DNA of 64,000 nucleotides from contig NZ_JACSWB010000147.1 in assembly GCF_016888135.1 (NCBI RefSeq), positions 186,001-250,000 on the forward strand. Direction: 5' to 3'. Made by a program: the position numbers and the translations under genes. Shown here in pieces: positions 10,384 to 53,264 of this stretch; position 1 is the stretch's first letter; every line of letters starts with the position of its first letter. The notes below the pieces were generated by a model, which was not told where the DNA came from, made no database searches, and saw only the letters and a list, made by a program, of their open reading frames with translations. Source of the DNA: Leptolyngbya sp. CCY15150 (GTDB lineage: Bacteria; Cyanobacteriota; Cyanobacteriia; RECH01).

Positions 10384-10725
10384 ATGTCAATTGCAGTTGG
10401 AATGGTAGAAACGCTAGGGTTCCCCGCTGTTGTGGAAGCCGCTGATGCGATGGTCAAGGCTGCTCGGGTCACCTTGGTGGGCTACGAAAAGATTGGTAGC
10501 GGTCGCGTGACCGTGATTGTCCGGGGTGATGTCTCTGAAGTGCAAGCTTCTGTGGCTGCCGGTATCGAGAATGTGAAGCGCGTCAACGGCGGTCAAGTTC
10601 TTTCCACCCACATCATTGCTCGTCCCCACGAAAACCTAGAGTATGTGCTGCCGATTCGCTACACCGAAGCCGTTGAAGCATTCCGGGAAAGCGTCACCGG
10701 TATTCGTCCGATGAACCGTCCATAG
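10384..10725 (+). CDS. ccmK1: Carboxysome shell protein CcmK1
   Basis: A 113-residue BMC-domain protein nearly identical to CcmK2 over the first 95 residues but with METLGFP-type wording (MVETLGFP), [17 protein letters not shown] in the variable helix, and a longer C-terminal tail ([12 protein letters not shown]). These features match CcmK1. It forms shell hexamers with or beside CcmK2. The ATG follows a GGAAGGGAG ribosome binding site. The high nucleotide similarity to ccmK2 could allow gene conversion. The stop is only five bases before the degenerate ccmL copy described below. Confidence 0.95.
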
Positions 10726-10730
10726 ACCTG

Positions 10731-10787
10731 AAGCAGCTTGCTAAGGTTTGTGGAATGGTAGTCAGCGCTCAACAAGATCCGAGGTTC
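10731..10787 (+). pseudogene. Degenerate duplicate of the ccmL 5' end
   Basis: Bases 10731-10787 align without gaps to the first 57 bases of ccmL (10789-10845), with 44 of 57 identical by eye. Read in the matching frame the copy gives QLAKVCGMVVSAQQDPRF against QIAKVCGTVVSTQKDPSL in CcmL. Most of the differences fall on third codon positions, so the copy once evolved as coding sequence. Its start codon position is AAG instead of ATG. The offset of 58 bases puts it out of frame with ccmL. Its CCGAGG codons now supply the Shine-Dalgarno sequence of the real gene. Best read as a remnant of a second ccmL allele left by recombination. Confidence 0.8.
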
Positions 10788-10788
10788 G

Positions 10789-11091
10789 ATGCAGATTGCG
10801 AAGGTGTGCGGTACGGTCGTCAGCACTCAAAAAGATCCAAGTTTAACTGGGGTCAAGTTCTTGTTACTCCAATTGCTCGATGAACAGGGAAACCCGTTGC
10901 CCGAGTATGAGGTGGCTGCAGATACGGTGGGTGCTGGGGTTGATGAATGGGTGTTGGTGAGCCGAGGCAGTGCTGCTCGACAGGTGAGCGGCAGTGAATC
11001 GCGTCCACTGGATGCTTTGGTCATTGGCATTATCGATACCGTCAGCCTAGACAATCGCTTGTTTTACAGTAAACGCGACTCGGATCGCTGA
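10789..11091 (+). CDS. ccmL: Carboxysome vertex protein CcmL
   Basis: A 100-residue EutN/CcmL-fold protein that forms the pentamers closing the twelve vertices of the shell. Motifs are QIAKVCGTVVSTQKDPSLTG at the start, KFLLLQLLDEQGNPLP in the middle and DALVIGIIDTVSLD near the end. Length is normal. The ATG at 10789 has GAGG only four bases upstream, inside the degenerate copy of its own 5' end. An overlapping out-of-frame reading frame opens at ATG 10755 and ends at 10883, so ribosomes starting there would read through the ccmL start. Confidence 0.95.
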   Translation: MQIAKVCGTVVSTQKDPSLTGVKFLLLQLLDEQGNPLPEYEVAADTVGAGVDEWVLVSRGSAARQVSGSESRPLDALVIGIIDTVSLDNRLFYSKRDSDR

Positions 11092-11141: not shown

Positions 11142-11279
11142 AGAATTACCGGCTGGGGGTGAAGTCTAAAAGGCAGCGATCGCTGCATCCATCTAGGGAT
11201 GTTTGATTGCCGTCTGGAGTTTAGGCAAGGGAAGCATCGCCCTAGCTTACTGGTTTGTATTGCTTAGAAGGGAATGCTT

Positions 11280-13295
11280 ATGGTAGCTCATTACTCCGCT
11301 ACTCCCCCAACACCATGGTCTAAAAGCTTGGCACAGCCTCAAATTCACGACACGGCCTACGTTCATTCATTCGCCAATATCATTGGTGATGTTTGTATTG
11401 GAGCTGGCGTAGTGGTCGCTCCAGGGACCTCCATCCGGGCGGATGAGGGGCACCCATTTTTTATTGGTGAGGGCAGTCGTGTTCAAGATGGTGCTGTCAT
11501 TCATGGCTTAGATCAGGGTCAAGTGGTGGGAGATAATGACCGCTCCTACTCCGTTTGGATTGGGCAACGAGTCACCCTCACTCACATGGCGCTGATCCAT
11601 GGCCCAGCCTATGTTGGGGATGATTGCTTTATCGGATTTCGCTCCACCCTGTTCAATGCTCGCATTGGTCAAGGCTGCATCATTATGATGCACGTGTTGA
11701 TTCAAGACGTGGAAATTCCACCTGGAAAATTTGTGCCATCTGGTTCCGTGATCACGTCTCAGCAACAAGCCGATCAGTTACCGGATGTGCAAGAAGCCGA
11801 TAGTCGCTTTGTGCAACATGTGGTGGGTGTCCATGAATCCGTGCGATCGCATCCCCATCAAGCGGAGAACGCCGTGCAGGTATCTACCCTGCGCCGTGAG
11901 TTAGAGCAGGTATACCAAGCAAGTGGTGATAGTGCTGACAGGGTCAATGATAGCGATGGGCAGGTACAACGTATGAAATTGAGTCCAGAAGTAGTAGAGC
12001 AGGTGCATCAACTGTTGACTCAGGGCTATCGCATTAGCACTGAGTTTGCCGATGCGCGTCGATATCGGATTAGTTCGTGGAAGACAGGGCCGTCGATTTC
12101 TGCCGGACAGCGATCGGAGGTGATTGCTGCCCTAGAGCGATGTTTGGATGAACATAGCCAAGAATATGTCCGCATGATTGGTGTGGATACGGGGTCTAAG
12201 CGACGGGTGGCTGAGGTGATGTTGCAGCGTCCGGGCGATCGCAATGGCAACTCCGCCCCCTCCCAGGATCGTCGCTCCACCTCCAACTATTCGCCCTATC
12301 AGTCTGGGCAAGCGATCGCCTCTCCGTCTTCCGAGCCTGTCTCTGGCGATATTGCTGAGCAGGTGCGTCAGCTTCTATCCCAGGGTTACCGGATCGGTAT
12401 GGAGCATGTGGATGCTCGCCGCTTCCGCACAGGCACGTGGAAGAGCTGCGCCCCCATTCAGTCTACGCGCTTGAATGAGGTGATGGCTGGCTTGGAAGCC
12501 TGTATGGCAGACCATGCCGGAGAATATGTGCGCTTGATTGGCATTGATACCCAATCTCGGCGACGGGTCTTGGAAACGGTGGTGCAGCGCCCCGGTGAGG
12601 CACCGAAGTCTGTTGCCAGCGGCGGACAGCGCAGCAACGGTGCCAGCTATGCATCGGCACCCTCCGCAAGCAGTGCGGGCCTGAGCCGTGAAGTGGCCGA
12701 TCAAGTCCATCAACTCCTGTCCCAGGGCTATCAGATTGGTACAGAGCATGTGGATGCTCGCCGCTTCCGCACAGGCACGTGGAAGAGCTGCTCACCCATT
12801 GAAGCAACCCGTCCTAACGATGTGATCGCCGCATTAAACGCCTGCATGGTCGAACATGCTGGGGAATATGTGCGGATGATTGGTATTGATACTCGGTCGC
12901 GCCGCCGGGTGGCAGAGGTGATGATTCAACGGCCAGGCGATAGCGCTCCCAAGGCTTCTGCATCGAGCAGTAGCTACGCGGCACGAACCAGTACGTCGTC
13001 TTCGAACGGTTCTGGATCACGATCCTCGTCAACATCTGTAGGCAGTGATGTGGCAGATCAGGTGCGTCAGCTCCTGTCCCAAGGCTACCGGATCGGTATG
13101 GAACATGTGGATGCTCGTCGCTTCCGCACGGGTACGTGGAAAAACTGTGCGCCGGTTCAATCCACCCGCCCTGATGATGTGATGTCAGCCCTGTCTGCCT
13201 GTATGGCGGAGCATCAAGGTGAATATGTTCGCCTGATTGGGATTGATACCAAATCCAAGAAACGGGTCGCTGAGATCATGGTTCAGCGTCCATAG
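11280..13295 (+). CDS. ccmM: Carboxysome scaffold CcmM: gamma-carbonic anhydrase domain plus four SSUL modules
   Basis: A 671-residue protein. Residues 1-200 form a left-handed beta-helix gamma-carbonic anhydrase domain with His75, His102 and His107 in the metal-binding positions. Four Rubisco-small-subunit-like modules follow, starting near residues 232, 355, 468 and 588 (pattern [20 protein letters not shown]), separated by Ser-rich linkers. They crosslink Rubisco into the carboxysome core. The ATG at 11280 is preferred over 11274: it follows AGAAGGGA and gives the family N-terminus and histidine numbering. An in-frame ATG at 11973 ([13 protein letters not shown]) would yield a short SSUL-only form like M35. 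The cysteines at 194 and 200 required by the active orthologue are absent (both Gln), and SSUL1 lacks one cysteine of the redox pair. Confidence 0.96.
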
Positions 13296-52910: not shown

Positions 52911-53264
52911 CTAGCGATTAAACGAAGACCCTAGAATGCGCGGTTGTTCCACAGCATCCCGGAATTCGGCAACGTCATCACCGTAGGCGATCGGCAGCAC
53001 GCACTCCACGTTTTCGTGGGGGCGGGGGATAATCACCCAAGATTCTAGAGCGCCCCCGTAGACGGTTTCGACGGCAGCAATGCCGGCCTCCATCGCCGCC
53101 TTGACTTCCGACACATCTCCACGAATATTCACGGTAAACCGGGCACTTCCCACCCGGATATAGCCCACCAAGGTGACACGCCCAGCTTTCACCATCGCAT
53201 CCGCTGCCGCCAGCACTGCGGGAAATCCCTTCGTCTCAATTGATCCAACCGCAGACAATGACAT
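52911..53264 (-). CDS. ccmK4: Carboxysome shell protein CcmK4
   Basis: A 117-residue BMC-domain protein: [59 protein letters not shown]. The SIETKGFP and IRVGSARF wording match CcmK4 rather than CcmK1/K2; the pore loop differs (VGSARF versus IGSGRV), implying different permeability. Second gene of the ccmK3-ccmK4 pair, known in other species to form mixed hexamers tuned by pH. ATG 53264 is chosen over 53282 because it gives the family start. Distant (about 38 kb) from the main ccm cluster, as usual. Confidence 0.93.

Follow-up and report, generated by a model that had tools for sequence, protein, structure and literature searches.

A decayed second copy of the beginning of ccmL in the ccmK1-ccmL spacer of a Leptolyngbya lineage, probably left by a local tandem duplication

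Short tandem duplications whose out-of-frame copy then decays are ordinary events in bacterial evolution. The main locus of the beta-carboxysome, ccmK2-K1-L-M-N, has this gene order and the same protein families in nearly all beta-cyanobacteria (PMC5853843). None of 227 surveyed beta-cyanobacterial genomes was recorded to have a second copy of ccmL (PMC5853843); even a partial one is therefore unusual. In the stretch of DNA analyzed here (64,000 nucleotides from Leptolyngbya sp. CCY15150, genome G000; hereafter, the window), the upstream gene, ccmK1, is an ORF for a BMC-H shell protein of 113 amino acids (positions 10384..10725, plus strand; stop codon at 10723-10725; Pfam BMC, E 1e-28), and ccmL encodes the carboxysome vertex pentamer of 100 amino acids (10789..11091, plus strand; Pfam EutN_CcmL, E 5e-34). 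By eye, ccmM (11274-13295) contains four RbcS-like repeats, the known range being three to five. A further sequence in the window, at 52957-53228 on the minus strand, is about 67% identical to ccmK1 and is probably a satellite ccmK gene.

Between ccmK1 and ccmL lie the five-base linker ACCTG (10726..10730, plus strand) and a decayed copy of the 5' end of ccmL (10731..10788, plus strand), 58 bases in length, which directly precedes the intact copy, that is, the first 57 bases of ccmL itself. After the linker, the remnant reads AAG CAG CTT GCT AAG GTT TGT GGA ATG GTA GTC AGC GCT CAA CAA GAT CCG AGG TTC G, and the ATG of ccmL follows at 10789. As described in the first-pass annotation, positions 10731-10787 align with bases 1-57 of ccmL without gaps, 44 of the 57 bases being identical (77%); AAG takes the place of the start codon, and the period of 58 bases puts the copy out of frame. 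The 13 differences fall on codon positions 1, 2, and 3 in the numbers 3, 2, and 8, respectively, and the remnant translates into KQLAKVCGMVVSAQQDPRF, compared to MQIAKVCGTVVSTQKDPSL at the N-terminus of CcmL. The match is far beyond chance, in agreement with the original description of the segment as a fossil duplicate of the beginning of ccmL: the next-best match to the ccmL 5' end in the window, both strands included, is 30/57, which is also the top score among 20,000 dinucleotide shuffles, none of which reached 44/57. The remnant is certainly homologous to the ccmL 5' end. A six-frame search across the entire genome yielded a sole second ccmL-like stretch, G000:C147:196734-196787 (67% identity over residues 2-19), with an E value of 0.56 because the stretch is so short; no full second ccmL that could be the source of the remnant was found elsewhere in the genome. 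An assembly artefact is ruled out as the origin of the remnant by its presence in three separate assemblies.

Alignment of the ccmK1-ccmL junctions of related genomes, the check proposed at first pass, bore out the presence of a ccmL-like remnant in the genus and in no other relatives. All three examined genomes of the genus (G000, G001, and G002) contain the remnant at the ccmK1-ccmL junction; it is absent from G003, the only genome in our sample that comes from another genus of the family, in which ccmL starts 6 bases after ccmK1. Neither was it found in the rest of the sample of 388 genomes of the class: a pattern search with the 3' half of the remnant running into the ccmL ATG (31 positions, at most 3 mismatches) over these 388 genomes matched the three genus members only, and the sole extra matches in a DNA search with the remnant, in the distant genomes G219 and G019, were their ordinary ccmL genes.

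The spacing of the two genes places the remnant at the ancestral start of ccmL. Among the 110 ccmK1-ccmL junctions that we measured, with some redundancy between the collections, 61 have a spacer of 6 bases; the spacer in the genus consists of 63 bases, that is, 5 + 58. At the other loci, among them those of genera with longer spacers (20 to 471 bases), the 200 bases ahead of ccmL contained no ccmL-like sequence, the best match being 26/57. The spacer is also expanded in a few other lineages, namely, L028 and L025 (about 470 bases), L030 (106), L104 (115), and L047 (94), by sequence without recognizable relation to ccmL, so the tight ccmK1-ccmL junction has been lost more than once. The ACCTG that precedes the remnant resembles the bases before ccmL in several relatives (for example, TATCTG and CGCCTG, likewise ending in CTG) and, by comparison of the junctions, is what remains of the ancestral short spacer. 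Given this likeness, and the length of 5 + 58 bases compared to 6 bases in most relatives, the remnant stands at the former start of ccmL, the downstream copy being the working gene. The remnant lies in direct orientation right beside its source, and the extra length equals one unit, as in the remnants of tandem duplications.

Thus, the best explanation, which we consider very probable, is a local tandem duplication of about 58 bp, after which the out-of-frame upstream copy lost its ATG and has been decaying. Under this scenario, about 58 bases, encompassing the ccmL start codon and the first 19 codons, would have been duplicated in tandem in the common ancestor of the genus. Since the unit length, 58, is not divisible by three, the remainder of ccmL would be in frame with the downstream copy alone, and the gene would now be read from there. 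The upstream copy, located at the ancestral start, 5 bases after the ccmK1 stop codon, would then have lost its ATG and decayed more or less neutrally, so that the start of ccmL would have shifted from about 6 to 63 bases past ccmK1, with the last bases of the remnant becoming the GAGG-containing leader of ccmL. We infer a single event; a longer duplication followed by a deletion would leave the same trace as one of about 58 bases, and the bases at the joint are not recoverable. An identical 57-base trace would also be expected if a complete tandem duplicate of ccmL had been retained for a while, which permits some selection on the copy before its decay, and most of the upstream copy had then been lost through a deletion reaching as far as the downstream start codon. 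This course, however, requires two events, with the deletion ending exactly at the ATG; furthermore, a second ccmL is present in 0 of the 227 surveyed genomes (PMC5853843), and the genome of each examined relative contains one ccmL, save for two divergent matches in family f2. We therefore regard a complete duplicate as improbable. The f2 genomes (G004, G028, G042, and G055) each contain two adjacent divergent CcmL-like matches that look like the alpha-carboxysome vertex-protein pair.

The excess of differences at third codon positions had been taken in the first-pass annotation as the signature of protein-level selection before decay. The excess itself stands but is modest (8 of the 13 differences; binomial p = 0.035 against a flat expectation), and only 6 of these 13 are synonymous. 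When we simulated a model in which the remnant is neutral and ccmL changes only silently, the mean number of third-position differences was 5.5, with at least 8 of 13 in 9.5% of the runs (P = 0.095), and at least 6 differences were synonymous in 19% of the runs (P = 0.19). Because ccmL can change almost only silently, the divergence on the ccmL side is expected to be synonymous; a decaying copy combined with silent change in ccmL yields such a bias, so the excess does not call for selection on the remnant. Of the 9 differences common to all three remnants, 5 change the amino acid under the standard code. The remnants of G000 and G002 differ at 7 of the 58 bases, compared to synonymous differences at 6 of the 70 sites in ccmL and 13 of the 88 sites in ccmK1, with no amino acid changes in either gene; thus, the remnant evolves at about the neutral rate. 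Its start-codon position is occupied by AAG in two species and by ACA in the third. No coding constraint acts on the remnant.

The same third-position bias (p = 0.035) would fit the origin originally proposed for the remnant, an ancient allele or paralogue replacement, in which a foreign ccmL recombined in downstream and displaced an older resident gene, of which the first 57 bases were left behind; also in line with replacement, at base 21 the family relative G003 agrees with the remnant and not with the genus ccmL. The bias is, however, accounted for by decay and silent change, and the phylogenies point elsewhere. In a tree of the 5' ends (54 columns, start codon left out), the remnants did not cluster with ccmL of another lineage, as had been suggested for examination; instead, the three remnants and the three ccmL genes of the genus form one side of a branch with moderate support (88/83, not starred). 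In the ccmL gene tree, the genus ccmL joins that of G003 (support 93/74), so there is no sign here that the working gene is foreign; the tree of ccmK1 neither backs nor rejects the grouping of the genus with G003 (p-AU 0.24). The ancestor of the remnants and the genus ccmL also have in common several states that are rare among 89 other ccmL genes, namely, G15 (16%), G18 (7%), T48 (20%), and T55 (16%), which correspond to AAG in codon 5, GTG in codon 6, and GAT in codon 16, plus T at base 55. The first 60 bases of ccmL are identical in G000, G001, and G002, and the protein is intact. Taking into account that the joining of a foreign gene exactly at its own ATG is a less simple event as well, we consider replacement highly improbable. 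The remnant apparently descends from the genus's own ccmL, a conclusion with moderate support.

The remnant supplies the sequence directly before ccmL, including the Shine-Dalgarno-like GAGG (10781..10784, plus strand), which formed inside the remnant 4 bases before the ccmL ATG. This much of the initial claim that the remnant provides the Shine-Dalgarno sequence of ccmL is observed; judging from the motif and its position, GAGG may serve as the ribosome-binding site. Of the Shine-Dalgarno matches at 111 junctions, GAGGT is the longest: none of the 108 relatives has at least 5 matching bases, and 8 have 4. A match of this length arises, however, in 4-7% of trials when the duplicated unit decays at random, so this is suggestive only. 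The overlapping frame noticed at first pass exists as well: a putative ORF of 42 codons (10755..10883, plus strand) opens at an ATG that arose in the remnant, spans the ccmL start, and ends at the TGA at 10881-10883; its translation has no Pfam match. The ATG at 10755 and the 42-codon frame are kept in all three genus genomes, and the frame stays open largely because most of it lies inside the constrained ccmL. Within the 63-base spacer, 8 of the 29 sites in the 5' part are variable compared to 1 of the 34 in the 3' part (Fisher p = 0.009, with the cut chosen post hoc), so part of the spacer may be constrained; the longest run of invariant sites is within expectation (P = 0.36). No promoter, terminator, or known RNA family was detected at the ccmK1-ccmL junction.

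Compatible with an origin by duplication, the remnant might have been co-opted as a regulatory leader that would uncouple ccmL from the termination of ccmK1, provide a ribosome-binding site, and limit the output of CcmL via the frame from ATG 10755. Such a role would be in line with the length of the GAGGT match and its 4-7% frequency under random decay, the lower variability of the 34 bases before ccmL relative to those further upstream, the conservation of ATG 10755 in the three genomes, and the need for CcmL in tens of copies as opposed to thousands of CcmK2 (29 CcmL per carboxysome and about 11,900 CcmK2 in Synechococcus elongatus; PMC11973430). However, these are only three genomes, two of them very close; the frame is open largely through the constraint on ccmL itself; the overall rate of change in the remnant is near neutral; and the leaderless relatives have ccmL 6 bases past ccmK1, so the remnant presumably is not needed for CcmL stoichiometry in general. 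Co-option therefore appears unlikely to us. The full sequence of events, in which a chance duplication of the gene's own start would break the tight spacing, and the resulting translation leader would then gain the Shine-Dalgarno sequence and an overlapping out-of-frame start, setting the dose of the vertex protein, is a rather doubtful proposition. If the leader does set the CcmL dose, the genus would represent a natural experiment on shell stoichiometry.

The ccmL remnant is a real but minor, ordinary kind of genome scar. We found nothing close to it among partial-duplication remnants in the literature, and it is the sole trace of a second ccmL among the beta-carboxysome genomes examined. 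Provided that it originated by duplication, it indicates that a small tandem duplication can alter gene spacing in an otherwise rigid core operon and give the downstream gene a new leader. As in ordinary partial tandem duplications with a decaying out-of-frame copy, it is a short direct repeat beside its source that has lost the start codon, changes in a neutral-like manner, and is restricted to one lineage. Unlike an ordinary pseudogene fragment, it sits in the core carboxysome operon and forms the leader of its own source gene. The locus as a whole matches the main beta-carboxysome locus, ccmK2-K1-L-M-N, in gene order and protein families and differs from its usual form in the ccmK1-ccmL spacer, which is 63 bases long in this genus instead of the usual 6.
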